Assembly (NCBI RefSeq): GCF_029360705.1 | Contig: NZ_JARKMX010000001.1 | Coordinates: forward strand, 434,001 to 498,000 | Source: Paraflavitalea pollutisoli | GTDB lineage: Bacteria > Bacteroidota > Bacteroidia > Chitinophagales > Chitinophagaceae | Length of the DNA: 64,000 bases | Direction of reading: 5' to 3' | Shown: one piece after another, positions 6,083 to 59,738 of the stretch | How positions within the stretch are numbered: the first letter of the stretch is position 1 | Layout: each line of letters begins with the position of its first letter | Program-made: the position numbers and the translations under genes | Notes under the pieces: model-generated | The model's database searches: none | What the model was told of the DNA's origin: nothing | The model's input: only the letters and a program-made list of their open reading frames with translations

Positions 6083-7129
6083 ATGCTTAGCAGACGTCGC
6101 CTTATCTTTCATCCGGTTATCCGGTTTACGCAGCACCTGGTCTTCTGGGTGCTGTCGTTCGTCGTGTTTGTGCAGCTTTTCAAGTCGAGTGCGGCACCGT
6201 TGCAAGGAGACTTTTTGTATGCGGGCCTCTTTCACCTTACTATTCTTCCGGCTGTTTATATCAATCTCTATTTTTTGCTGCCGCGTTTTATGCGGATCAA
6301 TAAATGGGTGTGGTACCTGGTGGCGCTGGTGTTGTTGGTGACGGTCTTTTCCTGGTTGAATTATTCTTTTTTTCAGGACTGGTCTCAACTGGTGTTGCCT
6401 GATTATTTTTTTATCAGCTATTTCTCCTGGTGGGAGGTCTGCCTCTTCTTTGTGGTGTATATTGGTATCAGTTCTTTGCTTAAGCTCTCGAAATCATGGT
6501 TCACAGTGTTGGATATGCAGCGTCGGTTGTTACAAGTGGAGTCCGAAAAAGCGCAAATGGAACTGGACGTCTTGCGGGAACAGGTCAATCCGCATTTTTT
6601 CCTGAATACCCTGAATGGGATTTATTCGATGACGCTTGATAAAGATGAGCGACTTCCTGAAACGATCCTGCAGTTGTCGCAGCTGATGAAATACTTTCTA
6701 TATGAGTCTGGCGATCATTTTGTGTTGTTGGAAAAAGAGTGGCAGATCGCGGAAGATTATATTTCGTTACAAAGAATTCGCTCCGGTCAGCAGTTGCAGT
6801 TGTATGTCGTGGTGGAAGGGGAGATCAGAGAGCAGCGCATTGCTCCTTTACTGCTGATCACTTTTCTGGAAAATGCTTTCAAGCATGGCGCCAAAGGTAG
6901 CGCCGGCCATGTTCGTATAGACGTGAACCTGGAGGTAATGCCACAGCAGCTTCGTTTCTGCGTAAAAAATACACGCGGGCAGGCTGCGGTTGTAGGTGAT
7001 GTCAAGCACCATGGCGTAGGGTTGGGAAATGTAAGGCGCCGGCTTGACCTGTTGTACAGCAATCGCTACCAATTGGACATTCAAGATCTGCAGGATGATT
7101 TTGTTGTAACCCTTGAACTGAACTTATGA
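6083..7129 (+). CDS. LytS/YehU-type sensor histidine kinase
   Basis: A 348-residue kinase with four predicted membrane helices (about 18-38, 45-68, 75-95, 113-135) and no extracytoplasmic sensor domain. A linker helix leads to the PF06580 phosphoacceptor motif LREQVNPHFFLNTLNGI with His171, and an HATPase region with FLENAFKHGA (N box) and HGVGLGNVRRRL (G box). It overlaps the LytTR regulator by 4 nt (ATGA), so the two form a pair. The signal must be sensed in the membrane or through the two exported proteins encoded just upstream. Confidence 0.9.
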   Translation: MLSRRRLIFHPVIRFTQHLVFWVLSFVVFVQLFKSSAAPLQGDFLYAGLFHLTILPAVYINLYFLLPRFMRINKWVWYLVALVLLVTVFSWLNYSFFQDWSQLVLPDYFFISYFSWWEVCLFFVVYIGISSLLKLSKSWFTVLDMQRRLLQVESEKAQMELDVLREQVNPHFFLNTLNGIYSMTLDKDERLPETILQLSQLMKYFLYESGDHFVLLEKEWQIAEDYISLQRIRSGQQLQLYVVVEGEIREQRIAPLLLITFLENAFKHGAKGSAGHVRIDVNLEVMPQQLRFCVKNTRGQAAVVGDVKHHGVGLGNVRRRLDLLYSNRYQLDIQDLQDDFVVTLELNL

Positions 7130-7827
7130 GTACTTTATACCGTTGTCTGGTGGTGGAAGATGAGCCGTTGGCTCAAAATGTATTGAAGAATTATATCAGC
7201 TCACATCCGTTACTGGAACTGGCTGGTCTTTGTGGCGATTCGCTGGAGGCCCAGCAATGGTTGGTGCAGCACCGTGCTGATCTGCTATTTCTGGATATCA
7301 ACCTGCCTGTTTTGTCGGGGGTCAGTTTTCTGAAAAGCCTATCACGCCCGCCGCTGGTCATCTTTACCACGGCGTATGCCGAATATGCTGCGGAGGGATT
7401 TGAGCTGGATGCGGTTGATTACCTGGTAAAACCTTTTTCTGTAGATCGTTTCCTGAAAGCAGTAAACAAAGCGTTGGAAAAGCTGGTAAGGCAACCAATC
7501 AGCAACGTTGGCTTTCATGAGCCTTTCATTTTTGTAAAAGCGGATAAGAAGGTCTATAAGATCAATCTTTCAGCGATCGAGTATATCGAAGCGTTGGATG
7601 ATTATGTGAAGATTGTGACCGGGGAAGGCTCTTACCTGGTACACGATACGATGAAAGGGATGCAGGAACAGCTACCTGCCGGTGAATTTATACGGGTGCA
7701 TAAGAGCTTTATCATTGTGCGCAGCAAGATTGTTTTTATTGAGGGTAACTATGTAAGAATTTCGGACAGGGATATTCCCATTGGTGCTTCTTACAGGGAG
7801 GAAGTATTTAGCAGGCTGAAGCTGTAA
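7126..7827 (+). CDS. LytTR-family response regulator
   Basis: A 233-residue regulator with an N-terminal receiver (VVEDEP acidic pocket, phosphoacceptor Asp57 in LLFLDINLP, switch residues in FTTAYAEYA and the VKPF Lys) and a C-terminal LytTR DNA-binding domain from about residue 130 (IFVKADKKVYKINLSAIEYIEALDDY, then FIRVHKSFIV). It is translationally coupled to the upstream kinase. LytTR proteins bind direct repeats in target promoters; its targets are not identifiable here. The next gene, gmk, follows after 41 nt without a visible terminator. Confidence 0.92.
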   Translation: MSTLYRCLVVEDEPLAQNVLKNYISSHPLLELAGLCGDSLEAQQWLVQHRADLLFLDINLPVLSGVSFLKSLSRPPLVIFTTAYAEYAAEGFELDAVDYLVKPFSVDRFLKAVNKALEKLVRQPISNVGFHEPFIFVKADKKVYKINLSAIEYIEALDDYVKIVTGEGSYLVHDTMKGMQEQLPAGEFIRVHKSFIIVRSKIVFIEGNYVRISDRDIPIGASYREEVFSRLKL

Positions 7828-7868
7828 AGTCGGAGTTTTTGGTTTTCTTTGCAGCTTTATTGTAAACT

Positions 7869-8447
7869 ATGGCCTTCGATCCCGGCAACAAGATCCTGAT
7901 TATTACTGCACCTTCCGGTGCGGGAAAAACGTCTATTACCCGTTACCTGCTGGAAAAGCTTCCTCAATTGGCTTTTTCGGTTTCAGCGGCTACCCGTCAA
8001 GCCCGGGGCAATGAAAAGAGCGGTGTAGATTATTATTTCATGGACGTAGAAGATTTTCAGCAGAAAATCCAGGATCAGGCTTTTGTGGAGTGGGAAATGG
8101 TGTATGAGGGAAAGTATTATGGCACGCTTAAATCCGAGCTTGACCGTATTTGGGCTAATGGCCAGGTGCCGGTTTTAGACATCGATGTTAAAGGCGCCAT
8201 ACATGTGCAATCGCAGTATCCGAATACTACTTTGTCGATGTTCATTGAACCTCCGTCCGTTGATGAGCTAAAGCGACGCCTGGAGTCGCGTGGTACAGAA
8301 ACTGCCGAAAGCCTGCAGGCCAGGGTTAATAAGGCTTCTTACGAGATCTCTTTCAAACATCACTTTCACCGAATTGTCATCAATGCCCAGTTGGACAAGG
8401 CCCGTGCTGAGGCTATGGAGATCGTACGCGACTTTCTAGCTATCTAA
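7869..8447 (+). CDS. gmk: Guanylate kinase
   Basis: Converts GMP to GDP with ATP in purine nucleotide metabolism. The 192-residue length is standard. It has the P-loop APSGAGKTS near residue 14, the GMP-binding region SAATRQARGNEKSGVDYYF, EWEMVYEGKYYGT, and the lid sequence RRLESRGTE. In many Bacteroidota gmk sits beside yicC; here yicC is about 40 kb away. Confidence 0.95.
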   Translation: MAFDPGNKILIITAPSGAGKTSITRYLLEKLPQLAFSVSAATRQARGNEKSGVDYYFMDVEDFQQKIQDQAFVEWEMVYEGKYYGTLKSELDRIWANGQVPVLDIDVKGAIHVQSQYPNTTLSMFIEPPSVDELKRRLESRGTETAESLQARVNKASYEISFKHHFHRIVINAQLDKARAEAMEIVRDFLAI

Positions 8448-8752
8448 AATTTACCCGAAATCAAGTATCATAGTGCTACGATAATGATCGGGAGGGAGGG
8501 TTTGGTCCGTGCCTTATTTAATTGCCACGATCCATTATCGATTTGCGCTTGGCTTGGCCAGTACAAGTTCGCCCGGCTGACTGGGGGGCGATTTTATTGG
8601 TGGCTGAGCCTGGTATTGGGGCTGGCACTTCATTTTTGTGTATAAAACAGGAAGCCTTTGCACGGTAATTGTAATACAGGGACTGAGAAATGCCAATCTT
8701 TCCCAATAAGTTATGTAATCCATCGTTCTTTTTATAAATTCGTATTCTAACT
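8448..8752. other. 305-bp intergenic region between gmk and the CNNM gene
   Basis: No convincing gene. A short plus-strand open frame of about 45 codons ends at the TAA near 8667 but has no start codon and no recognisable match. TATAAATTCG just before the downstream ATG is a poor fit to the -7 consensus. I see no strong hairpin or repeat. Confidence 0.5.
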
Positions 8753-10027
8753 ATGAGTTTATTTGTCATAATAGCCATTGTCGTCGCGGTTTTCTTTATA
8801 GCCTGGTTTTCCGGTATTGAAGTGGCCTTTACCTCGGCAAACCGGCTTAATATTGAACTGAAGAAGAAGCAGGGCTCTACAAGCAGTTTGCTACTGAGTA
8901 ACCTGTTTGAAAATCCATCACGTTTCATTGGTGTTACGATCGTTGGATATAACACCTTTCTCGTTGTTGCCGTATTGCTGGGCAGTGCTGGTTGGAATTA
9001 CCTGATCCCTTACGAAAAGATCAGTCCATCGGAGGCCTACCTGGTGCCACTACGTCTCATTTGCGAAGCCTTTTGTTCCTGGGTGGTGATTGTAGTCCTG
9101 GGAGAATTTATTCCCAAAGCGATTTTCCGTGCCAAATCGGACAGCCTTTTGTCTTTTTCCGCGCGGACAGGCTTGCTGGGGCTTTGTGACTATGTCTTCA
9201 ACTGGATCAGCATTGCTTTCGTCAAGTTTTCCATTTTTATCCTGAATATTATATTCGATATGCGTATCGACAAAAAGAAGGCGCCTTTTTCCCGGGCGGA
9301 TCTCGACCTGTTCTATACGCAAAACAACGAACATCATAACCAAAGCCAGGACCTGAAAGCCGAGCTGTTTGAGAATGCGCTCTCTTTGCCAAAGATCCGG
9401 GTGCGGGAGTGTCTGGTACCCCGTAAGGAAATCGAGGCCATTGATATTAAGATGAGTGTAGAGGATGTGCGCAAGGCCTTTGTCAATACCAAGCTGAGTA
9501 AGCTAGTGGTATATGATGGCGATATCGATCATATCCTGGGATATGTACACCAACTCGACCTGTTCAAGCAGCCTGCTACGATCAAAGATATGATGCTGCA
9601 GATACCGGCTATTCCGGAAAGTATGAGTGCCACGGACCTGATCAGTAAGCTCAGCAAGGAGCGCAAGAGCATTGCCTGGGTAGTGGACGAGTTTGGCGGT
9701 ACGGCGGGTATTGTGACCATGGAAGACGTGCTCGAGGAGATCTTCGGCGAGATCAAAGATGAGTTTGATGTGGAAGAATTTGAAGACAAGCGCGTAGCCG
9801 AAGACGAATTTATCCTCAGCGGACGGTTGGAGCTCGACTACCTGAAAGAAAAATATGGGCTGGAGTTTCCCGACCATGAGTCGGAGACTTTATCGGGGTT
9901 CATTATCCAGCAGCACGAAACCATTCCCAAACTCCGGGAACGTATTATTATCGGCGATTATGAGTTTGACGTTATGGGGGTCAGTGACACCCGTATTGAA
10001 ACAGTGCGTCTGAAGCTCCTCAAATAG
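8753..10027 (+). CDS. CNNM/CBS-domain protein (HlyC/CorC family)
   Basis: A 424-residue protein with an N-terminal CNNM (DUF21) domain of about four hydrophobic segments in residues 1-170, including the signature GIEVAFTSANRLNIELKKKQ. A cytoplasmic CBS pair follows at about 210-335 (VRECLVPRKEIEAID and AWVVDEFGGTAGIVTMEDVLEEI), then a C-terminal CorC_HlyC domain. Family members are linked to Mg2+/Co2+ homeostasis or export; in gliding Bacteroidota the related GldE has the same architecture, so GldE is an alternative name that cannot be settled here. Confidence 0.87.
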   Translation: MSLFVIIAIVVAVFFIAWFSGIEVAFTSANRLNIELKKKQGSTSSLLLSNLFENPSRFIGVTIVGYNTFLVVAVLLGSAGWNYLIPYEKISPSEAYLVPLRLICEAFCSWVVIVVLGEFIPKAIFRAKSDSLLSFSARTGLLGLCDYVFNWISIAFVKFSIFILNIIFDMRIDKKKAPFSRADLDLFYTQNNEHHNQSQDLKAELFENALSLPKIRVRECLVPRKEIEAIDIKMSVEDVRKAFVNTKLSKLVVYDGDIDHILGYVHQLDLFKQPATIKDMMLQIPAIPESMSATDLISKLSKERKSIAWVVDEFGGTAGIVTMEDVLEEIFGEIKDEFDVEEFEDKRVAEDEFILSGRLELDYLKEKYGLEFPDHESETLSGFIIQQHETIPKLRERIIIGDYEFDVMGVSDTRIETVRLKLLK

Positions 10028-10127
10028 CCTGTAATGGCATGTAAATAAGCCTTATACACCAAAGATGGGAATAAAAGCTACCTGCAATATCCCGTAATTG
10101 CCAATCACCACATATTAACAAGCTTTC

Positions 10128-10160
10128 TTGTCCAATCCAACGTGATAACCCGTACATTTG
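10128..10160 (+). promoter_or_regulatory. Promoter of tatC
   Basis: TTG at 10128-10130, a 22-nt spacer, then TACATTTG at 10153-10160, a full match to the Bacteroidota -33/-7 pattern. The predicted start of transcription is about 10167, giving a leader of roughly 27 nt to the ATG at 10194. Confidence 0.6.
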
Positions 10161-10193
10161 CCCCGTTTTATAAGTTAATTCCTCTAGTAATCA

Positions 10194-11051
10194 ATGGCGA
10201 TATCGTTATTTAACAGGAGAAAGACCGACAATCCGGAGATGACCTTTGTGGATCATTTGGAGGAGTTGCGTTGGCATATCATGCGGTCGCTGATCGCGGT
10301 GATCGTTGGGGCAATTGTGGTATTTATAAATATCGATTGGATCTTTGACCAGATCATTGCAGGCCCTTTGCAGAAGGATTTCTATACTTACAAAGCTTTG
10401 TGTGACTTAAGTACCTGGCTCGGTGTAGGGGATTCGTTGTGTTTGCCGCCCCCTTCAACCGAAGGTGGATTGCAGACAACAACCTTTGGCTCGCAGTTCA
10501 TGACAAGTATCACTATTGCTTTTGTTGGTGGATTTATTTTTGCCTTCCCCTATATATTCTGGGAGTTCTGGCGTTTTGTGAAGCCGGCGTTGAGTCCCAA
10601 GGAGTTGAAGAGTACCCGTGGTGCGATCTTTTTCGTTTCCATCTTCTTTTTCCTGGGTATCTCCTTCGGCTATTTCCTATTAGCGCCTTTCACATTCAGC
10701 TTTTTGGCCAATTATACGATCGGCACCAGCCATATCCTCATAGCCCGGCCGACATTGGCTGACTACATGGAAAATCTGATTGATATTATGATCGGATCTG
10801 CGCTGGCGTTCCAGTTGCCAGTCATCTCTTATGTATTAACGCGTATCGGTCTGATCACCCCCAGTTTTCTAAAGACCTATCGCAAATACTCTTATGTGGC
10901 TATTCTGGTTATTGCAGCGATCATTACGCCATCGCCCGACTGGATGAGCCAGATGATCGTGTTCCTGCCACTAGCCTTCCTGTATGAGTTTAGTGTCATT
11001 ATCTCTGTGCGGGTATTTAAACGGCAGCAGGAGAAAGACAAGAACTGGTAA
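10194..11051 (+). CDS. tatC: Sec-independent translocase subunit TatC
   Basis: The polytopic core of the twin-arginine translocase, which recognises folded proteins with RR signal peptides. The 285 residues show six hydrophobic helices. The family start TFVDHLEELRWHIMRSL is present, with the Glu used in signal-peptide binding, as are FWRFVKPALSPKELKSTRG and the end of helix 6 ITPSPDWMSQMIVFLPL. No tatA/B gene is adjacent. It precedes rpiB with a 62-nt gap that carries a perfect palindrome. Confidence 0.95.
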   Translation: MAISLFNRRKTDNPEMTFVDHLEELRWHIMRSLIAVIVGAIVVFINIDWIFDQIIAGPLQKDFYTYKALCDLSTWLGVGDSLCLPPPSTEGGLQTTTFGSQFMTSITIAFVGGFIFAFPYIFWEFWRFVKPALSPKELKSTRGAIFFVSIFFFLGISFGYFLLAPFTFSFLANYTIGTSHILIARPTLADYMENLIDIMIGSALAFQLPVISYVLTRIGLITPSFLKTYRKYSYVAILVIAAIITPSPDWMSQMIVFLPLAFLYEFSVIISVRVFKRQQEKDKNW

Positions 11052-11060
11052 TTGTTTCGC

Positions 11061-11076
11061 TAGCCATTAATGGCTA
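11061..11076. repeat. Perfect 16-bp palindrome between tatC and rpiB
   Basis: TAGCCATTAATGGCTA reads identically on both strands. It lies 10 nt after the tatC stop and 38 nt before the rpiB start. It has no T-run, so it looks more like a protein-binding site or a small stem than a terminator. Confidence 0.5.
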
Positions 11077-11113
11077 CATCGGTTTATCCCTAATTGACCC
11101 AATAATTTCAAGT

Positions 11114-11569
11114 ATGGCCTCTTCATTCGATCTTTCCAAGCCTATCGCCATCGGTGGCGACCATGCCGGCTTCGACTATAAAGTTGCCCTTGTTCAGTAT
11201 TTGAAGGACAAAGGCCTGGCTGTAAGTGATCTCGGAGTACATGAAAACAAGTCGGTGGACTATCCCGATTATGCGCATCCGGTGGCTGATGCCGTGGAGA
11301 AAGGTGAGGCGGCGTTTGGTATCCTGATCTGTGGTAGCGCGAATGGGGTTGCCATCACGGCCAATAAGCACCAGGGTATCCGTGCCGGACTGTCTTTTGA
11401 GCCAGCAGTAGCGAAACTGATCCGTCAACACAATGACGCCAACGTGATCTGTATTCCTGCCCGCTTTGTGTCTGTGGATGTGGCCCGGGAAATGGTCGAC
11501 CTGTTTATAGAAACCCCGTTTGAGGGAGGGCGTCACCAAACACGCGTGAATAAGATTTCCTGCAGCTAA
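11114..11569 (+). CDS. rpiB: Ribose-5-phosphate isomerase B
   Basis: Interconverts ribulose-5-phosphate and ribose-5-phosphate in the pentose phosphate pathway. The 151-residue length is standard for the RpiB/LacA fold. It has IGGDHAGFDYK at the start (phosphate/substrate site), DYPDYAHPVADAVEKGEA, the catalytic-Cys loop LICGSANGVAITANK, and the C-terminal helix after RHQTRVNKI. It is convergent with the deoxyhypusine-synthase-like gene, with a strong hairpin between them. Confidence 0.95.
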   Translation: MASSFDLSKPIAIGGDHAGFDYKVALVQYLKDKGLAVSDLGVHENKSVDYPDYAHPVADAVEKGEAAFGILICGSANGVAITANKHQGIRAGLSFEPAVAKLIRQHNDANVICIPARFVSVDVAREMVDLFIETPFEGGRHQTRVNKISCS

Positions 11570-11615
11570 GATGATGGAATAGCAGGCCATGATACCAGAG
11601 CCTGCCTTACAATAC

Positions 11616-11655
11616 CAATGCCGCAATTCGTATTTTACTACGCATTGCGGCATTG
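11616..11655 (+). terminator. Long hairpin between convergent rpiB and DHS-like genes
   Basis: Arms CAATGCCGCAAT (11616-11627) and ATTGCGGCATTG (11644-11655) pair perfectly over 12 bp. Inside, CGTA/TACG extends the stem after one mismatch, leaving a 6-nt loop. The following bases are TTGTTTG, so it is a weak-tail plus-strand terminator or a bidirectional one serving both genes. Confidence 0.65.
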
Positions 11656-11677
11656 TTGTTTGATGTCTTGTCTATAA

Positions 11678-12652
11678 TTACCAGCCGAGGAGGTAAGCGA
11701 AGATCAGTGGCGCTACGATCGTGGCATCGCTTTCTACGATAAATTTCGGTGTGTTGATATCAAGTTTGCCCCAGGTGATTTTTTCGTTGGGGACTGCACC
11801 TGAATACGAACCATAAGAGGTCGTTGAATCGGATATCTGGCAGAAATAGCTCCAGAATGGAACATCGTGCCATTCAAGATCCTGGTACATCATTGGCACT
11901 ACGCAGATCGGGAAGTCTCCGGCGATACCACCACCTATCTGGAAGAAGCCCACGCCTTTGCCGCCGCTGTTTTGGCGATACCAGTCGGCGAGGTATACCA
12001 TGTATTCGATACCATTCTTTACGGTGCTGGCCTTCAATTGGCCTTTGATGACGTAACTGGCGAAAATGTTACCGGTGGTGCTATCTTCCCAACCTGGTAC
12101 TACAATAGGAATATTTTTTTCTGCAGCGGCTACAATCCAACTGTCTTTGGGGTCGATCTCATAATGCTCTTTCAATACGCCACTGAGTACCACTTTATAG
12201 AGGAATTCGTGCGGGAAGTAACGCTCGCCTTTGGCTTCTGCGTCTTTCCAGGCATTTTCCAGGTGTTTCTGCAAACGACGGAAAGCCTCTTCTTCGGGAA
12301 TACAGGTATCGGTAACCCGGTTATAGTGGTTTTCGAGCAGGTCCCACTCATCCTGGGGGGTAAGGTCGCGGTAGTTGGGAACACGCTTGTAGCTGTTGTG
12401 GGCTACGAGGTTCATAACGTCTTCCTCCAGGTTGGCACCGGTACAGGAAATGATCTGGATCTTGTCCTGGCGGATCATTTCGGCCAATGAAATGCCGAGC
12501 TCTGCCGTACTCATGGCTCCTGCCAGGGTAACCATCATTTTGCCACCTTCGAGTAGGTGAGTTTCATAACCTTTAGCGGCATCGATCAGCGCAGCTGCAT
12601 TGAAGTGCCGGTAGTGATGTTGGATAAACTGTGAAACAGGTCCTTTAGCCAT
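11678..12652 (-). CDS. Deoxyhypusine synthase-like protein
   Basis: A 324-residue member of the deoxyhypusine/homospermidine synthase family (NAD-dependent aminobutyl transfer from spermidine in eukaryotes). It has GGKMMVTLAGAMSTAELG and SCTGANLEEDVMNLVAHN, the NAD/spermidine-site motifs, then VVPGWEDSTTGN, FFQIGGGIAGDFPI and ITWGKLD with the catalytic Lys at about 296. Bacteria have no eIF5A, so the substrate must differ; homospermidine or another polyamine product is possible but unproven. The ATG at 12652 is chosen because the family motif begins there. TAACTTTG (complement of 12676-12683) upstream fits a -7 box. Confidence 0.85.
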   Translation of the reverse strand: MAKGPVSQFIQHHYRHFNAAALIDAAKGYETHLLEGGKMMVTLAGAMSTAELGISLAEMIRQDKIQIISCTGANLEEDVMNLVAHNSYKRVPNYRDLTPQDEWDLLENHYNRVTDTCIPEEEAFRRLQKHLENAWKDAEAKGERYFPHEFLYKVVLSGVLKEHYEIDPKDSWIVAAAEKNIPIVVPGWEDSTTGNIFASYVIKGQLKASTVKNGIEYMVYLADWYRQNSGGKGVGFFQIGGGIAGDFPICVVPMMYQDLEWHDVPFWSYFCQISDSTTSYGSYSGAVPNEKITWGKLDINTPKFIVESDATIVAPLIFAYLLGW

Positions 12653-12675
12653 GATCTTTCGGAATTTTGTGGCGG

Positions 12676-12683
12676 CAAAGTTA
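12676..12683 (-). promoter_or_regulatory. Candidate -7 box of the DHS-like gene
   Basis: On the minus strand TAACTTTG followed by C matches TAnnTTTG, 23 nt before the ATG at 12652. No good -33 TTG was found at the expected distance. Confidence 0.4.
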
Positions 12684-12710
12684 ACACAATTGGGAGATTT
12701 ACTATTATTA

Positions 12711-12748
12711 TTAAAAAACAAAGGGTGAGTCACTTTCGCGACCCACCC
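12711..12748 (-). terminator. Rho-independent terminator after the PepSY-like gene
   Basis: Minus-strand RNA reads GGGUGGGUCGC, loop GAAA, GUGACUCACCC: an 11-bp stem with two G-U pairs and a GNRA loop, followed by UUUGUUUUUU. It separates the PepSY-like gene ending at 12782 from the DHS-like gene. The two G-U pairs would be mismatches in plus-strand RNA, so it acts only on the minus strand. Confidence 0.85.
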
Positions 12749-12781
12749 GTTCTCTTTTCCAACTAAAACCAACTTGTATTC

Positions 12782-13234
12782 TTATTGAATATTCTTCTTT
12801 TCTTTCTTGAACACTTCCCAGCTCGCAGAACCACTTGATTTTAAGATCAGTTGTTGCTCACCGTCCTGCAGTGTAACGTAGTAGCTGGTGTTACCGCCGG
12901 CAGCGAGTTCGAACAGGTCTGTGATCCAATACCCGGTGTAGCCTTTTTTGAGCGAGGTCAGCATGTTGATAGGTAGTTGCTCTGACAGGATGTTGCGGGT
13001 TACCGCTGTCAATTCTCCCTCTTTGCTGTAATACGCGTACAATACCTGGTCGTTCATTTTAAAGGTAGCCTTGGCGAAGGTTTTACCAACTTCCCAGCTA
13101 ACATTTTGTGCATCGGAGAAGTCTTTTTTAAAGGCGTTGACTACTTGCTGGCTAACTGTTTCGATTACATTGGCAAATGTTGAGCTAAGTCCAACAGTTA
13201 ACATTAAAGCCCATACTAACATCATCTTTTTCAT
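12782..13234 (-). CDS. Secreted PepSY-like small protein (paralogue 1)
   Basis: A 150-residue exported protein. MKKMMLVWALMLTVGLSSTFA is a signal peptide. The mature part follows the plan F..DF..AqNVSWE....YAKATFkMNdQVLYAYYSKEGELTAVTRNI, then a helix and a strand repeat (GYWITDLFEL...TSYYVTLQDGEQQLIL). The paired tandem-repeat fold resembles PepSY/BLIP-like periplasmic domains; I assign it by pattern only. Paralogues lie at 13328-13795 and 18166-18594. The ATG at 13234 gives the signal peptide; the longer frame to 13276 was discarded. Function unknown. Confidence 0.75.
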   Translation of the reverse strand: MKKMMLVWALMLTVGLSSTFANVIETVSQQVVNAFKKDFSDAQNVSWEVGKTFAKATFKMNDQVLYAYYSKEGELTAVTRNILSEQLPINMLTSLKKGYTGYWITDLFELAAGGNTSYYVTLQDGEQQLILKSSGSASWEVFKKEKKNIQ

Positions 13235-51528: not shown

Positions 51529-52272
51529 TTAGCTGAATTTGGCAAGGAACTCATCCCGTTTACGGATCGACACCTCAATCATGGTACCGTCTTCCATTTC
51601 GATATAGCCCCCCCTTCCGCGGTGGTATTTCCGTACAAACAAATGGTTGATGATGTGCGAGTGGTGGATGCGCGAAAACTCGTCGGCGCTTAAAATGTCC
51701 TCAAACTCCTTCAGGGTTTTGGATACGATAAGCGGCGCTGAGCTTTTTAGGAAGATCGTGGTGTAATTACTTTTGGCCTCCATGCGGATACAATCGTCCG
51801 TGTTGATAAAAACCAGCCCGTCAAGGGTGGGCAATGCCAGCCGTTGATAGCTGTTTTTCTGCGATTGGAGGTTGAATAGCAGGGTTTCGATCTGCTTATG
51901 AATATGCTTATTTTCCAGTCGCTCCACCGCTTTTATCACAGCTCGCTGCAATTCTTTGATATTGATAGGCTTTAGCAAATAGTCGAGAGCAGCATATTTG
52001 ATGGCATTGATAGCATAACTGTCAAAAGCAGTAACGAATACGATTTCAAAACCGACCGGAGACAGGGTATTTAAGAGATCGAAGGCATTGCCGTAGGGCA
52101 TCTCGATATCCAGGAAAACGAGATCGGGCATGGTGGACCTGATGACTTCTTCACCTGTTATGGCACTTTCGGCAGTGCCTACGATCTGTACCTGCGGACA
52201 AAACCGCAACAGCAGCTGTTGTAAGGTATTAATGTTGTTGGGCTCATCGTCAATTAATACAACCTTGATCAT
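51529..52272 (-). CDS. LytTR-family response regulator of the propeller kinases
   Basis: 247 residues. Receiver with MIKVVLIDDEPNNINTLQQL, Asp55 in LVFLDIEMP, VTAFDSYAI and LLKPINIKEL; LytTR domain from about 150 (LALPTLDGLVFINTDDCIRMEAKSNYTTIFL, FSRIHHSHIINHLFVRKYHRGRGGYIEMEDG). It starts 1 nt after the stop of the upstream kinase, so it is coupled with it. It is the only complete LytTR regulator beside the two kinases and most likely receives phosphate from both. It is convergent with lpxD, 9 nt apart. Confidence 0.93.
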   Translation of the reverse strand: MIKVVLIDDEPNNINTLQQLLLRFCPQVQIVGTAESAITGEEVIRSTMPDLVFLDIEMPYGNAFDLLNTLSPVGFEIVFVTAFDSYAINAIKYAALDYLLKPINIKELQRAVIKAVERLENKHIHKQIETLLFNLQSQKNSYQRLALPTLDGLVFINTDDCIRMEAKSNYTTIFLKSSAPLIVSKTLKEFEDILSADEFSRIHHSHIINHLFVRKYHRGRGGYIEMEDGTMIEVSIRKRDEFLAKFS

Positions 52273-52273
52273 T

Positions 52274-55252
52274 TCAGCTAAGTTTTGAAAGCAATGACAG
52301 CGGAAACGCGATCTCTACACGCGTACCGATTGCCTTACCCGTTTCGTCGATCTTATCGACAATGTTTATCGTGACCGTTCCATTAAATTGCCGGTTCAAT
52401 GCCTGGATCCTTTCGGCTGCCAGGGTCATTCCTTTGGATTGATACTCCACATGTACTTTTGATCGCAGGCGCAGCGCTTCTACGCGACCAATGCCGTTGT
52501 CTTCTACCGTACAGGCCAGGGATGCCCCATACTGCCTGAACTTTACTTCCACCAACCCCTTTTCTCCTTTTTTGTAGCGAATACCATGGCGGATGCTGTT
52601 CTCCACATAGGGTTGTAACATCATACTGGGAATTGAGAGATGACTGGCATCGATTTGCTCATCCACGGTGATCTTATAGTCGAATGAATCACCAAAACGC
52701 ATCCGCTCCAGTTCCATATAACGCGACAGATAGCTTACTTCTTCCTCAAGCGTGATCGTGCCTTTGGCTGCACTATCCATGGTTTGGCGGATAAGGCGGG
52801 CAAACGCCGTAAGGTATTGGTTGGTCGCCAACAGGTCGTTTTGAATGATAAATGCCTGGATAGAATTGAGGCAGTTGAAGATGAAATGTGGGTTCATCTG
52901 GGCCAGTAAGGCCAGTTGTTCCAGCTTACTGACTTTTTGCTCAAGGCTCGCCTTCTCCCGCTCCCGCTTTCTCAATACACTGAACCGGGCGCCTACCAGC
53001 AGCGCGGTCAGCATAATCGTCAATATGGCGACAATTGCCAGGAACCACCAGGTTTGCCAAAATGGAGCCTTGACCGTAAAGGGAATAATAATTGGAGCGC
53101 TCACAACCCCAAATTTGTTGATTGCCGTGAGCTCCAGTTGATATTGCCCGGAAGGCAGTGAGGGATAGCTCAATGTGTTTTGCCGGGTAGAGTCCCAGGA
53201 ATCTTTCAACCCCTTTAATCGGTATCTGTAAATTATATCACCAGCCGATTTGAACGAGATCGCGACAAAATCGATAGTAATATTATTGTCATTGTAAGCC
53301 AAATGGCCTATCGAATCGGGGTCGACAGGTCGACCCGATACAGATAGCCCCAGCAACTTCAGATCGCAACGCGAAAAATCCGATACCTGCCTTTCATTGA
53401 AAGTAGTAAGTCCGGCCGGCGATCCGATATATACCAGGCCGCTGTCCACATAGATGGCATTGATAATATTGGATGGCAACCCATCAGAAAAAGTATACTG
53501 GCGCGGACGTAACGACAAATTTCTCTGGTCGATCTTATTGACGCCTTTGTCGGTCCCAACCCACAAATGATCTTTGTCTATAAATAAGGTTCTGCAGATA
53601 TTACTTGTAAGCCCTTCGCGGGTGGTGATTCGGGCAAATACCTGGTCGCCTTTCAACCCAATAACACCTCCGCCAAACGTCGCTACCCAAATGGTTCCAT
53701 CTGTTGTTTGGCTGATTGCCGCTATGCGATAGCGCAGGTTGGGCTCTTTTGCCCCCAGGTATTTTTCTTTCTGGCCTTGTTGCAAATAATACAACCCTTC
53801 AACCGTTCCCACATAGGTCTGCTGTTGGTAGTATCCGACACTGGTAGCCCGGGTTGTCCAGATGGTATCTAAAACAGCGAGCTTCGTTGCGTCCACATGC
53901 ACCACATTCCGGCCGGTAGCTATCAACAACTTGTCCCTGCTGATCTCCTGAACTGCTTTAACCGGCTCGATAAAGCAAAACCGTCCAGCGGATTTGCTTT
54001 TTTGATATACAAAGAGGTCATATCCCAGCATAAGACTGCCGTTGGTGAGGGGAGCAATGGATACCAGTCGGTTGCTGGTATAAGATACCTGGCTGGCCTT
54101 TTCAATAGGTGCAAGAAATGAGGCGAGCTTGATCGTAGTACCGTTGATCTCATACAGCTTATTAAAGCCAGCACCTGCCAGGATGGTATTGTTGCTGGCT
54201 GCCAGCGAGAATATTTCAGGGTGTTTGTTATCCGGAAAGGTGAAAGTTTTAAAGTTGCGCGATGTTAGCTTATAAACCCCCTCGCCGGTTGTTCCAAACC
54301 ACATATTCTTTTCAAAGTCGATCAGCACAGTATTCACCATTTTTCCCGGTAGAAATTTCTCGGCGAACCGGTCTTGCCTTATGGTGTCTACCAGGTACGC
54401 TCCATCGTTGCTGCCAATCAGGTATAATTGTAGTTCCTTCCTGTCAGCACTGAATCTTCCATAGAAATTTGAAGTAATACCTTTCTTGTACCTGATTGTT
54501 TTGACCACTCCATCCGCGGTAACATTTGACATAACGATTTTACCCGCCAAGGCGTTTTCGCCAGCCTTCCAGAAGCTAAGTCGTCCGTCTTGCCAAAGAA
54601 ATGAAGAGTCGTAGGTCGATAATATCAAGCCTCCTGGATTATTAAAGTTGGGCATACCACCTTTAAAAATTCTATTGAAATGTCGAAGACTGACTAATTG
54701 CTGATTCCCTGGTTTCGTATGGAGGATATATCCAAACCCGCCATCGAGCAGCAATAAATTGCCATCACGATCGCCTGTCATAAAGGATATGACTCCCTCT
54801 ATTTTTACCCGCCTCAACAGGCTGTCATTGTCTGCAGTGTGCATTTTCCCCTGGTAATAATAACAAAGGGTATTTTTAAACGGTGAGATCCAAAGTCGTC
54901 CCTGGTAATCTTCAAATAATTTAATTACCTCCGCATCTGGCAACCCATCAGCCGTGGTGAAGTTCTTAAACCGCGTGCCATCGAAACGGCTAAGGCCCGC
55001 CTCAGTAGCAAACCAGATATAGCCATCCTGATCCTGCACCATATCGTAAATGGTAGAACCTGCAAGTCCATCTTTGGTATCATAGCGGATGTAATTGTAC
55101 TCCTGACCCGAAGTAGCGGTAGGAGCGAAAAGAGCGCAGAAAATTAGGAACAACAAACATCCCAGCCATTGAATAATCCCTCTAACAGGCCCCAGGCAAG
55201 GCGCTGACATAGGCAATGAGCTGGTTTCAAAGGCATGAATGTAGGTCGACAT
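52274..55252 (-). CDS. Two-component regulator propeller-type sensor kinase (1)
   Basis: About 992 residues. A signal/anchor near residues 27-48, then a periplasmic sensor of Reg_prop repeats forming two beta-propellers (for example DGLAGSTIYDMVQDQDGYIWFATEAGLSRFDG and DHLWVGTDKGVNKID), a Y_Y_Y domain (SAGDIIYRYRLKGLKDSWDS), one membrane helix (733-757), a coiled coil, and a LytS-type kinase with His790 in MNPHFIFNCLNSIQAF and HATPase (QPYVENSIRHGI, VEDNGIGR). This is the kinase class that senses breakdown products or polysaccharides in Bacteroidota. Start uncertain: ATG 55252, or TTG at 55255 or 55216. It is 1 nt upstream of its regulator. Confidence 0.9.
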   Translation of the reverse strand: MSTYIHAFETSSLPMSAPCLGPVRGIIQWLGCLLFLIFCALFAPTATSGQEYNYIRYDTKDGLAGSTIYDMVQDQDGYIWFATEAGLSRFDGTRFKNFTTADGLPDAEVIKLFEDYQGRLWISPFKNTLCYYYQGKMHTADNDSLLRRVKIEGVISFMTGDRDGNLLLLDGGFGYILHTKPGNQQLVSLRHFNRIFKGGMPNFNNPGGLILSTYDSSFLWQDGRLSFWKAGENALAGKIVMSNVTADGVVKTIRYKKGITSNFYGRFSADRKELQLYLIGSNDGAYLVDTIRQDRFAEKFLPGKMVNTVLIDFEKNMWFGTTGEGVYKLTSRNFKTFTFPDNKHPEIFSLAASNNTILAGAGFNKLYEINGTTIKLASFLAPIEKASQVSYTSNRLVSIAPLTNGSLMLGYDLFVYQKSKSAGRFCFIEPVKAVQEISRDKLLIATGRNVVHVDATKLAVLDTIWTTRATSVGYYQQQTYVGTVEGLYYLQQGQKEKYLGAKEPNLRYRIAAISQTTDGTIWVATFGGGVIGLKGDQVFARITTREGLTSNICRTLFIDKDHLWVGTDKGVNKIDQRNLSLRPRQYTFSDGLPSNIINAIYVDSGLVYIGSPAGLTTFNERQVSDFSRCDLKLLGLSVSGRPVDPDSIGHLAYNDNNITIDFVAISFKSAGDIIYRYRLKGLKDSWDSTRQNTLSYPSLPSGQYQLELTAINKFGVVSAPIIIPFTVKAPFWQTWWFLAIVAILTIMLTALLVGARFSVLRKREREKASLEQKVSKLEQLALLAQMNPHFIFNCLNSIQAFIIQNDLLATNQYLTAFARLIRQTMDSAAKGTITLEEEVSYLSRYMELERMRFGDSFDYKITVDEQIDASHLSIPSMMLQPYVENSIRHGIRYKKGEKGLVEVKFRQYGASLACTVEDNGIGRVEALRLRSKVHVEYQSKGMTLAAERIQALNRQFNGTVTINIVDKIDETGKAIGTRVEIAFPLSLLSKLS

Positions 55253-55365
55253 CAAATCACAAAATGTTAGAACGGTCAGGGTGCGCTGAAGGTAGCTAAA
55301 AAAGCTACACCATACGACTGGTATCTATCTTATTTTTGGCTGAAAGCAACTACCCGTATTCGTAA

Positions 55366-55431
55366 CTATCGGTAATGTTGGTATACGTTCATATTTATGA
55401 GGTCAACATCGAAAGGTACGGTCTTGATCAT
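55366..55431 (-). pseudogene. Remnant of a LytTR regulator start, from a duplication
   Basis: ATG-ATC-AAG then GTA in codon 5, 1 nt after the stop of kinase 2, reproduces the beginning of the real regulator gene at 52272, with the same spacing. After about 14 nt the match ends and the frame runs into a stop after 21 codons (MIKTVPFDVDLINMNVYQHYR). At 55350-55375 it passes into the last codons of a copy of the carboxypeptidase-like gene (minus strand TACGAATACGGGTAG, matching TACGAATACGAGTAG at the end of 58507-59589). Confidence 0.7.
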
Positions 55432-55432
55432 A

Positions 55433-58411
55433 TCAACTTAGTTTTGGAAGTAATGACAGCGGAAACGTGATCTCTACACGGGTACCGCTGGCCTTACCTG
55501 TTTCGTCGACTTTATCGACAATGTTTATGCTGATAGTTTCATTAAATTGCCGGTTCAATGCCTGGATCCTGTTGGCTGCCAGGGTCATACCTTTCGATTG
55601 GTACTCTACATGCACCTTTGATCGGAGCCGCAACGCCTCCTGTCGGCCAATCCCATTGTCTTCAACGATACAGCTGAGTTGTGATCCATACTGCCTGAAC
55701 TTTACTTCCACCAATCCCCCTTGTCCTTTTTTGTAGCGTATCCCATGACGAATGCTGTTCTCCACATAGGGCTGTAACATCATGCTCGGAATGGACAGGT
55801 AGCTCACATCGATCTGCTCGTCAATCGAGATCTCAAAATCGAATGATTTACCAAAACGCATGCGTTCCAGCTCTATGTAACGGGATAAATAGCTGATCTC
55901 GTCTTCGAGGGTGATGGTTCCTTTAGCTGCACTATCCATGGTTTGGCGGATAAGACGGGCAAATTCTGTCAGGTATTGATTGGTGGCCAACAGGTCGTTT
56001 TGAATGATGAACGCCTGGATCGAATTAAGGCAGTTGAAGATGAAATGCGGGTTCATTTGAGCCAGCAGAGCCAATTGTTCCAGCTTACTGACTTTCTGCT
56101 CCAGGCTGGCCTTTTCCCGCTCCCTTTTTCTCAGAACACTGAACCGCGCCCCTACCAATAGGGCAGTAAGCGTAATTGTCAGTAGGGCGACAATAGTCAG
56201 GAACCACCAGGTTTGCCAAAAGGGAGCATCGACGGTAAATGGGATAATGATGGGGGCACTGACAACCCCAAATTTGTTGGCCGCCGTGAGTTCCAGTTGA
56301 TATTGCCCGGAAGGCAGTGAGGGGTAGCTCAGGGAGTTTTGCCTGGTAGAGTCCCAGGTCTCTTTCAATCCCTGCAACCGGTACCGGTATAAAATATCAC
56401 CTGCCGATTTGAAAGAGATGGCTACAAAATCGATGGCAATATTATTGTCTTTGTAGGCCAGATGACCAATAGAGTCTGGGTTAACCGGCTGCCCCGATAT
56501 CGAAACGCCGAGCAACTTCAGGTCGCAACGGGAAAAGTTCGACACCTGCCTTTCATCGAATGTGGTCAGCCCAGCTGGCGATCCTATATGAACCTGGCCC
56601 CTGTCAACATAGATCGCATTGATAATATTAGACGGCAATCCATCGGAGACGGTATACTGACGGGGAGGAGACGACAGGTTATTCAGGTCAACCTTATTGA
56701 CGCCTTTATCTGTCCCTACCCACAAATGATCCTTGCCTATGAATAAGGACCTGCAAACGTCACTGGTAAGGCCATCGCCGGAGCTGATTCGGGCAAAAAC
56801 TCGGTCGCCTTTTAATCCAATGATACCCCCGCCAAACGTTGCCACCCAAACAACACCATCATTTGCCTTGCTTATAGCTGCTATGCGATAGCGGAGGGCA
56901 GGTTCGTCGGTTCCTAAATAGCGTGCCTGGTGCCCACTTTCAAGAAAGTTCAGCCCGTCCACTGTTCCAATATATACCTGGCCATTGTGGTAACCCACAC
57001 TGGTAGCCCGAGACGGCCAAATGGTATCTAACACGGCAAGATTTGTTGCGTCTACATGTACAACATTCCGGCCGGTAGCGACCAATAGCGTATCCCGGTT
57101 CACCTCCAGCAAAGCTTTAATTGGAGACAAAATGCTGAATTTCTCATGAACACCTTTCTTAAGAAAAAGATATAAGTCAAAACCAAAAGCCAGGCTTCCA
57201 TTACTGGTTGGCAATATCGTCAATAGCCGATTGCTGGAATAGCTTCCTTGTGTCGCCTCTTCAAAGGTCTTGACCAAGGGAGATGATTTTACTGTTCCTG
57301 CGCTAAATTCATAGAGTTTATTATAGTCGCCGCCGATTAGCATAGCATTGCCAACTTTCACAATGGAAAAGATCTCCGGACTTTGGTTGCCGGTAAAGCC
57401 GTATGTTTTGAAATTGCGGGAGGTCAATTTATAAATGCCTTGGCCGTTAGTGCCAAACCATAAGTTATTCTCATAGTCGATCCATACAGCATTCACTTTC
57501 TTGCCTGCTAAGAACTTTTCCTCCAACTGCCCAAAATTCACGGAATCAATAGAATAAGCTCCGTCAAAATTGCCAATAAGAAAGGTATTAATGCTTTTTT
57601 TGTCTATACTCCATTTTCGATAAAAGGAGGTAATGGCATTTGTGTAGGAGATGTATTTCGCGGATTTGTCCGATGATAATTGAGCAGGGAACATTTTTTT
57701 ACGACTTGAGTTTACAAGCGAAGCCCAATAGGACAGTTGACCTTCCCGCCATAAAAAGGAGGAGTCCTCAGTAAACAACAAAATCCCTTTTGTACTATTG
57801 AAGTTAGGAATTGCGTTAACAAAATGTCGTTGAAACGGCAGCAGTCTTAATAGTTTTTCTTGACCAGGCTTTGTCTGCAGGATATACGCAAAACGACCTC
57901 CACTCATGAAAATATTTCCAGCATAATCTCCCGTGATCACCTCAACGGCAGCATCAAGCTTCACCAGTTTCAGCAAACTGTCATTGGCTGCTGTATGAAT
58001 TTTCCCCTTGTAATAGTAGCAAAGGGTATTTTTAAACGGAGCGATCCACACGCGCCCCGTATAATCTACATATAGCTTGATGACCTCTACATCCGGCAGC
58101 CCATCTGCCGTGGTGAAATTTTTAAACCGTGTACCATCAAAGCGGCTCAGGCCTGCCTCTGTAGCAAACCACATAAAACCCTCCTGATCCTGCACCATAT
58201 CATACACGGTGGAGCCTGCAAGACCGTCTTTGGTATCATAACGGATATAATTGTACTCCTGAGCGGAAGTAATAGTAGGGGAGACAAGAGCATAGAAAAA
58301 TAGTAACAACAGACAACGCAGCCTTCGTATAATCCCTGTAGCAGGCCTTGGGCTGGGCACTGGTACAGGCAATGAGCTGGTTTCAAAGGCATGAATGTAG
58401 GTCGACTTCAA
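55433..58411 (-). CDS. Two-component regulator propeller-type sensor kinase (2)
   Basis: 992 residues, tandem paralogue of the previous gene with the same order: N-terminal hydrophobic segment, two propellers, Y_Y_Y, membrane helix, coiled coil, LytS-type kinase (MNPHFIFNCLNSIQAF, QPYVENSIRHGI). The region after about residue 440 is nearly identical to kinase 1; the first propeller (about 150-420) has diverged clearly. The frame opens with TTG at 58411 where kinase 1 has TTG then ATG, which suggests that the shared start is TTG or a downstream codon. No regulator gene of its own follows, only a stub. It probably signals through the regulator at 51529. Confidence 0.9.
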   Translation of the reverse strand: MKSTYIHAFETSSLPVPVPSPRPATGIIRRLRCLLLLFFYALVSPTITSAQEYNYIRYDTKDGLAGSTVYDMVQDQEGFMWFATEAGLSRFDGTRFKNFTTADGLPDVEVIKLYVDYTGRVWIAPFKNTLCYYYKGKIHTAANDSLLKLVKLDAAVEVITGDYAGNIFMSGGRFAYILQTKPGQEKLLRLLPFQRHFVNAIPNFNSTKGILLFTEDSSFLWREGQLSYWASLVNSSRKKMFPAQLSSDKSAKYISYTNAITSFYRKWSIDKKSINTFLIGNFDGAYSIDSVNFGQLEEKFLAGKKVNAVWIDYENNLWFGTNGQGIYKLTSRNFKTYGFTGNQSPEIFSIVKVGNAMLIGGDYNKLYEFSAGTVKSSPLVKTFEEATQGSYSSNRLLTILPTSNGSLAFGFDLYLFLKKGVHEKFSILSPIKALLEVNRDTLLVATGRNVVHVDATNLAVLDTIWPSRATSVGYHNGQVYIGTVDGLNFLESGHQARYLGTDEPALRYRIAAISKANDGVVWVATFGGGIIGLKGDRVFARISSGDGLTSDVCRSLFIGKDHLWVGTDKGVNKVDLNNLSSPPRQYTVSDGLPSNIINAIYVDRGQVHIGSPAGLTTFDERQVSNFSRCDLKLLGVSISGQPVNPDSIGHLAYKDNNIAIDFVAISFKSAGDILYRYRLQGLKETWDSTRQNSLSYPSLPSGQYQLELTAANKFGVVSAPIIIPFTVDAPFWQTWWFLTIVALLTITLTALLVGARFSVLRKREREKASLEQKVSKLEQLALLAQMNPHFIFNCLNSIQAFIIQNDLLATNQYLTEFARLIRQTMDSAAKGTITLEDEISYLSRYIELERMRFGKSFDFEISIDEQIDVSYLSIPSMMLQPYVENSIRHGIRYKKGQGGLVEVKFRQYGSQLSCIVEDNGIGRQEALRLRSKVHVEYQSKGMTLAANRIQALNRQFNETISINIVDKVDETGKASGTRVEITFPLSLLPKLS

Positions 58412-58506
58412 AGCACAAATTATTAGAACGGTCAGGGTGCGCTGAAGGTAGCTAAAAAACCTACATCTACCGGCCAGTAGCTATCTTATTTTTGGATGAA
58501 AAGCAA

Positions 58507-59589
58507 CTACTCGTATTCGTAATTGTAGGGTAACAGCTCTGCCAGCTTTTTCCAGGCCCAGTATCCCGTATTGATCACGTCATACTGTTCGTAGAAATAG
58601 CCATTCTCTTCGATCACAAAACCGTTGGTTAAACTGAGCAGGGTTACCTGCATCTTCATGCCGGCCGGCAACTTGAATTCCTGGAGAAAACGCTTGTCGG
58701 GCAACACCGTTCTATAGCTGATACGGTAGCGACCTGCCCAATTGACCGTCACATCACTACTGTCGGCAATATACTGCTCTCCATCGTATAGCTTGTGGAT
58801 AATGCTGCCTTTGACACTCTGGGGATCGTCTTCCAGCTTCTCAACGATAAAACCGTCTTCGATCACCGTACTGTCATACAGGGAACGCATAAAATGAAGA
58901 CGGGATCCAAGGTAGGTCTTCGCCCTGTTTTTGGTCCAGGTTTCCTGCATTGTCTCCGTACTGTCGATTTCCTGAAACAAGGGTGCACCCGTATACTGAC
59001 TTACATTGGTATTGTAATCGTAGCTGAAAGAGTCCAGTTGGTACCGGATCGTATAACCCAGCGCATAATTCGTGATCAATAGATCTTCTTTGGCGGTTAC
59101 CTTCAACCGGTTGCGCTTTTTTGTATAAAAAAAGCGCAGGGCTTCCGGGTTCTGCAGTACGCATTGAGCCGCATTGGGCGTAGTGCCGATAAACTGCTCC
59201 GTAAAGAAGGAACCATATTTGGACAGGCCGTCGGCCACCTCGTTGCTGGCCACCACAGCGACCTCCGCCATTGCCTTTTCTTCCTTCACCAACTCGATCA
59301 ACAGGGTGTCTGCCAGCGACTGATTGCTGCTGATACGCAACACCTGTTTGTTGTATCCCATATAGGATACAACGAGGTCGTATCCGCCGTTAGGTAGTCG
59401 CAGAAAGAACAGGCCTTCCTGATTGGTCGTGGTACCGTGTGTTGTATTCTGGCAAAAAGCAGAAGCGCCTAACAATGGCTGTCGGGAGGCTGAATCCACC
59501 ACCTTGCCCAGTATGGCAAAATCCTTTTGTTGGGCCCAGCCAGCAAGCGTAAAACAGGTTAAAAGAAGCGCAGTAAAGGCATTTTTCAT
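58507..59589 (-). CDS. Carboxypeptidase-like regulatory domain protein, exported
   Basis: 360 residues. Signal peptide MKNAFTALLLTCFTLAGWA, then a carboxypeptidase-regulatory-like beta-sandwich (AILGKVVDSASRQPLLGASAFCQNTTHGTTTNQEGLFFLRLP, about 22-105) and a C-terminal unassigned domain (EQFIGTTPNAAQCVLQNPEALRFFYTKKRNRLKVTAKE...). Such proteins are surface-exposed or outer-membrane associated in Bacteroidota; the function is not known. It lies 95 nt upstream of kinase 2 in the same direction; its last codons were included in the kinase duplication. Confidence 0.8.
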   Translation of the reverse strand: MKNAFTALLLTCFTLAGWAQQKDFAILGKVVDSASRQPLLGASAFCQNTTHGTTTNQEGLFFLRLPNGGYDLVVSYMGYNKQVLRISSNQSLADTLLIELVKEEKAMAEVAVVASNEVADGLSKYGSFFTEQFIGTTPNAAQCVLQNPEALRFFYTKKRNRLKVTAKEDLLITNYALGYTIRYQLDSFSYDYNTNVSQYTGAPLFQEIDSTETMQETWTKNRAKTYLGSRLHFMRSLYDSTVIEDGFIVEKLEDDPQSVKGSIIHKLYDGEQYIADSSDVTVNWAGRYRISYRTVLPDKRFLQEFKLPAGMKMQVTLLSLTNGFVIEENGYFYEQYDVINTGYWAWKKLAELLPYNYEYE

Positions 59590-59738
59590 ACGGATACTAT
59601 TGATCGCTTGAATAGAGAATAAATTGAGTATATACAAGGTCTTGAAAAGCAGCCTGCATGAACAGCAGCGTTCCAGATAACCAAAATACTATAAAAATCG
59701 CTGAGCCGAAAGTTAAAAAGAGGCAACAACTTTGCCAG

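Follow-up and report, generated by a model that had tools for sequence, protein, structure and literature searches.

A readable tandem duplication of propeller-type histidine kinases in Paraflavitalea pollutisoli, with likely later gene conversion at the 5' end of the copies

Introduction

How did two similar propeller-type sensor kinases come to lie in tandem before a single LytTR response regulator, and have the two copies simply drifted apart since then? The locus that raises these questions is situated in a stretch of 64,000 nucleotides of the Paraflavitalea pollutisoli genome (referred to as "the window"), for which a preliminary description had proposed a tandem duplication with a legible junction. 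The gene order on the minus strand is the gene for a carboxypeptidase-regulatory-like domain protein (CPD), kinase 2 (k2), kinase 1 (k1) and the LytTR regulator gene. The features, in window coordinates, are as follows.

51529..52272, minus strand: LytTR response regulator (Response_reg plus LytTR, Pfam), the sole regulator at the locus
52274..55255, minus strand: k1, the downstream copy, a propeller LytS-type histidine kinase
55256..55349, minus strand: putative k1 promoter interval, a copy of the CPD-kinase interval by its identity to the k2 interval
55350..55371, minus strand: CPD-tail remnant, the last ~6 codons, Y-E-Y-G-stop
55372..55431, minus strand: degraded copy of the regulator start (codons 1 to ~20), MIKTVPFDVDLINMNVYQHY
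55433..58411, minus strand: k2, the upstream copy, with domains as in k1 and without a regulator gene after it
58412..58506, minus strand: putative k2 promoter interval
58507..59637, minus strand: CPD, the 3' end of which forms the upstream boundary of the duplicated unit

Results

Two kinases and one regulator

Both kinase reading frames of the preliminary description were borne out. k1 consists of an N-terminal helix, propellers (Reg_prop), Y_Y_Y, a membrane helix, His_kinase and HATPase_c. Reg_prop, Y_Y_Y, His_kinase and HATPase_c exceed their Pfam cut-offs in each copy (4/4 for either kinase), HATPase_c by a very small margin (26.6 and 26.5 versus 26.4). Residues N788, H790, N886, D919 and G921 are invariant across the 16 aligned proteins, k1 and k2 included; these presumably mark the region of the phospho-accepting histidine (N-P-H-F-I-F-N) and the N and G boxes. 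In the structure model of k1 (mean pLDDT 78, pTM 0.63), an N-terminal helix of low confidence (25-46) precedes a mostly strand-built sensor extending to ~730, followed by a long helix (736-786) and then the kinase.

The Pfam search found no receiver domain in k1 or k2, and both proteins end after HATPase_c. Membership in the hybrid (HTCS) class was rejected, as no receiver or DNA-binding domain is fused to the kinase C-terminus (Pfam). A protein with Response_reg and LytTR domains adjoins k1 only (Pfam), a single nucleotide separating the k1 stop from the regulator start, and no second regulator adjoins k2.

When the 8.76-Mb genome of the organism was searched with k1, 121 matching stretches were obtained at E<=0.001, with several hits per gene, which suggests that the organism has many histidine kinases. 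At another locus of this genome, L126 (C15:114000-131000, 6113-12850, minus strand), the order is kinase, regulator, kinase (HK-RR-HK), the regulator being named LytTR-like from its sequence by eye. The two L126 kinases are 51% identical (493/965), with the greatest likeness at the kinase end.

The seam between the copies

The k2 stop codon, TGA, occupies 55435-55433 and is followed by one base and then by ATGATCAAG, so that a copy of the regulator start does lie 1 nt past the k2 stop, as had been proposed. This copy is not merely the first codons, however, but a remnant of ~60 nt (55431-55372), reading MIKTVPFDVDLINMNVYQHY where the nearest congener has MIRTVLIDDEPNNIDTLQHL. In a free local alignment the 13-nt match TGAnATGATCAAG scored 21 with a shuffle maximum of 28, and is not above shuffles. 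The seam was also compared in register with nine regulator starts, those of the own genome and of eight relatives, and this comparison alone decided the matter. For nt 10-60 of the remnant, the summed in-register matches amounted to 237, a value reached by 2 of 27,868 windows (49-63 kb, both strands), as many as would be expected were one of them the remnant and the other the regulator gene (window positions were not printed). Taken alone, the score of nt 10-36 was reached by 7 windows and that of nt 37-60 by 30 in the same 49-63 kb, and the far end of the remnant is less certain for this reason. Thirty-four of the 60 remnant bases equal the regulator gene of the own genome.

The proposed Y-E-Y-G-stop tail of CPD is also present in the junction, at 55371-55350, where it ends in its own stop and is followed by a complete CPD-kinase interval. 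The seam itself falls at ~55365-55378, inside the remnant stretch 55350-55431. Because the seam holds the regulator remnant, the CPD tail and the complete CPD-kinase interval, the duplicated unit can be sized at ~3.16 kb, its two copies covering roughly 58525-55372 and 55371-52213, with the outer edges inferred from the remnants. A unit running from the CPD tail through the kinase into the regulator start, as the preliminary description had it, is thus supported, and it reaches to about codon 20 of the regulator. Identity across the parts of the junction is significant, by the window score for the remnant and by comparison with shuffles for the promoter interval (below). The unit is repeated head to tail, its two ends meeting at a seam, which is what identifies a tandem duplication; k1 and k2 are a tandem duplication of propeller LytS-type histidine kinases. 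Since a remnant of the regulator start is fused to a remnant of the CPD tail, each kinase has its own promoter interval while only k1 has an adjoining regulator. A 6-mer common to the regulator and the CPD tail was noticed by eye at the seam; with a chance of ~5% (hand estimate), it is not claimed as microhomology.

The duplication is confined to one lineage

Five genomes represent the genus, the own genome included, and each of the other four has one match at E<=1e-200. These four congeners and four genomes from two other genera make up the eight relatives. All eight show the single-copy order epimerase, CPD, one kinase and regulator, against lpxD, rlu and YicC, so the ancestral order that the preliminary description had suggested looking for exists. 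Two kinases with two regulators at this locus, the arrangement it had named as speaking against its proposal, were found in none of the eight. In a survey of the family (394 genomes including the own), 38 genomes had a match at E<=1e-180 and ten, including the own, had two; an adjacent pair was found only in the own genome among the two best candidates scored per genome, a scoring to which a third-ranking or weaker second copy is invisible.

Trees of 22 rows each were made for the sensor (aa 121-440) and the output half (aa 441-993). In both, k1 and k2 are sisters (support 99/96 and 100/100, respectively), with L118, the locus of congener G004, next. The duplication therefore postdates the split from G004, that is, it arose in the own lineage after separation from the nearest sampled congener.

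Promoter intervals and start codons

The upstream words shared by the two kinases were found at the places given for them, except that the first word recurs from 58426 and not from 58427, a shift of one base. Between the stop of CPD and the start of the kinase, the two copies are identical at 83 of 93 aligned bases (best of 100 shuffles, 0.86). The identity of this interval is 0.89 for k1-k2 and 0.69-0.77 for other pairs, which is shuffle level in 14/14.

Within the interval, an element T6..TACCTTCA is located at 55287-55303 before k1 and at 58443-58459 before k2. TA(C/T)CTTCA precedes the kinase in six of the eight relatives; L118 has TATCTTGG at this place, and L124 has none in the stretch examined. 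The fuller pattern has three matches in the window with 0.2 expected, and three were reached by 3 of 100 shuffles. The T-run with TA(C/T)CTTCA, which we take to resemble the Bacteroidota -7 promoter element, is likely a promoter. Because the element is kept before both copies, each kinase probably has a promoter of its own. As for the leader, no Rfam match was obtained in 51-60 kb up to E=1 except a sub-threshold one at 59468-59560, and neither the k1 nor the k2 leader folds better than its shuffles.

The k1 ATG (55252-55250) corresponds to the start of the congeners, with an in-frame TTG at 55255-55253. In k2 (58406-58411), the ATG of k1 and of all four congeners is replaced by AAG, directly preceded by a TTG. 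The k2 start is likely this TTG (58411-58409), and k2 would then be translated from a weaker start codon.

Uneven divergence along the kinases

The kinase halves had been described as near-identical. This did not hold, as aa 441-993 are only 84% identical in amino acids and 80% in nucleotides, and 118 of 212 fourfold sites (56%) differ there. Over the entire proteins, identity is 71% (aa) and 73% (nt), and over aa 61-440 it is 54% in amino acids. The copies are old and unevenly diverged, which the preliminary description had missed.

In the sensor (aa 121-440), k1 and k2 are about as distant from each other as from the congeners, but the output halves of the two are far more similar to each other than to those of the congeners. 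Taking the split from L118 as 1, the k1-k2 tips lie at a depth of 0.83 (0.69-0.99) when aa 121-440 are used and of 0.28 (0.22-0.34) when aa 441-993 are used. Control trios gave sensor/output fractions of 0.88/0.92 and 0.78/0.97 within the genus, where the contrast is absent, and 0.52/0.40, a mild contrast, outside it. Derived residues were counted at columns invariant in the four congeners: the sensor has 6 common to both copies and 17 confined to one, and the output half 33 and 12, respectively (Fisher p=2.7e-4).

Silent sites vary along the gene as well. Fourfold differences between k1 and k2 amount to 4/19 in codons 1-60 versus 172/275 in codons 61-950 (p=5e-4), and to 5/16 in the last 43 codons (p=0.06 versus 441-950). 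At twofold sites, the sensor and the output half differ at 32/70 and 31/152, respectively (p=1.9e-4), the largest ratio among 16 pairs; four of the 15 control pairs lean likewise at p<0.02, among them k2-L118 (ratio 1.91, p=0.003) and L120-L121 (1.74, p=0.002). Third-position trees gave fractions of 0.75 (10-90%: 0.47-0.97) and 0.42 (0.32-0.50), and were discarded for dating, the intervals being too wide to decide. NG86 dS was discarded because it is saturated in the sensor. In a silent-run test of the GENECONV kind, the longest run was 14 codons (P=0.07, not significant), and this test was not used as support for conversion.

A separate observation concerns the regulator (51529-52272), the branch of which is about twice as long in the own genome as in L118/G004 (0.30 v 0.14). 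In quick trees with several weak forks, the corresponding branches of other genes showed no excess for CPD (0.18 v 0.16), epimerase (0.15 v 0.18), lpxD (0.05 v 0.05) and HK47 (0.15 v 0.12), and a mild excess for HBD (0.29 v 0.21). It is possible that the regulator and the kinase output halves changed in concert.

Discussion

Events of this sort are ordinary; what is unusual here is how legible and well preserved the locus has remained. It offers a clear case of a bacterium gaining a second sensor, as the limits of the unit, the loss of the regulator and the gene order before the event are all legible. The stretch from the last ~6 codons of CPD through about codon 20 of the regulator was duplicated head to tail, most simply once. 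In the account that we propose, short conversion tracts between the copies would later have reset the 5' end, comprising the promoter, the leader and the opening ~17-50 codons, and perhaps the final ~40 codons as well, and either older conversion or constraint would have kept the output halves alike. k1 and k2 would both be active and both phosphorylate the single regulator, and one output would thereby receive two periplasmic inputs. We are fairly confident of this account as a whole, in which the duplication itself is shown, the later conversion is likely and the action of both kinases on one regulator is presumed.

The promoter and the first codons look younger than the rest, and gene conversion at the 5' end after the duplication is likely, a later tract of conversion being the best reading of this end. 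Silent sites favour conversion but fall short of proving it. In the kinase half, conversion is less certain than at the 5' end, being supported by the derived residues and weakly by the silent sites. The likeness of the output halves may reflect older conversion, constraint or a burst of change before the duplication. Such a burst could mimic conversion there, and is considered because the stem of the output half is long (0.46 versus 0.24 for the L118 tip).

Tentatively, the kinases might be regarded as a mosaic in which promoters and output halves are kept similar by repeated conversion, and the propeller sensors, exempt from it, drift towards different ligands; both kinases would in this way stay wired to one regulator. 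If this reading is true, tandem kinases would add an input without rewiring, and newly arisen sensors could in this way remain connected to a regulator that is already in place.

Duplication followed by divergence without any conversion, with fast sensors, constrained output halves and a promoter and leader conserved for their function, seems to us rather unlikely, though several observations agree with it. The L126 kinase pair of the own genome has the same shape (76-77% at the kinase end, 18-39% in three sensor windows), a conserved T-run and TA(C/T)CTTCA element sits in the interval, and the run test was not significant. However, the sensors show no clear speed-up over the single-copy congener (stem plus tip 0.73 and 0.90 v 0.67 for L118). 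Conservation for function would also have to account for an interval that is at shuffle level in every other pair yet not between k1 and k2, for a leader without an RNA-family match or unusual fold, and for codons 1-60 being low at silent sites too.

It is improbable that homologous recombination with a sister species outside the sample gave one copy a foreign sensor, with the remainder showing the true and younger age of the duplication. An old-looking sensor would likewise result, and, on a rough estimate by hand, the number of bases that the regulator remnant still shares with its gene suits an age similar to that of the kinase half, but the k1 and k2 sensors are still sisters, no donor is found among the four congeners, and a 5' end younger than the kinase half is left unexplained. 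Very improbable indeed is an old pair from which one copy was lost in each congener: the k1-k2 sensor divergence does nearly equal that between species, but k1 and k2 are sisters in both gene parts to the exclusion of the four congeners, all four of which (4/4) have CPD-kinase intervals of 103-115 nt with no remnant visible by eye.

Returning to the duplication with later conversion, two sensors probably feed one LytTR regulator. This is the simplest wiring because the output half is conserved and one regulator is left. Among the literature matches listed, none dealt by its title or the start of its abstract with this locus or with conversion between tandem histidine kinases.

The domains (Reg_prop, Y_Y_Y and His_kinase, LytS-type) and the pairing of a kinase gene with a regulator gene are those of the Bacteroidota LytS-type and LytTR systems, from which the present locus differs in having two kinases per regulator and a readable duplication seam. 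L126 likewise has two kinases around one LytTR-like regulator, but there the regulator lies between the kinases. Propellers and Y_Y_Y are shared with the Bacteroides BT4663-type sensors (PDB 4a2l/4a2m; 3v9f, 3ott/3va6), and 4a2l/4a2m, from Bacteroides propeller kinases, are the closest solved sensors by sequence (PDB). In PMC5121618, BT4663 is described as having two seven-fold propellers plus Y_Y_Y, with disaccharides binding the entry faces of both propellers. By the title of a work in its reference list, BT4663 belongs to a hybrid system, whereas the regulator at our locus is a separate LytTR protein. Many-to-one wiring in two-component systems is exemplified by KinA-KinE (PMC12471899), in which several kinases serve one receiver, as we infer here; at the present locus the second kinase arose by local tandem copying.
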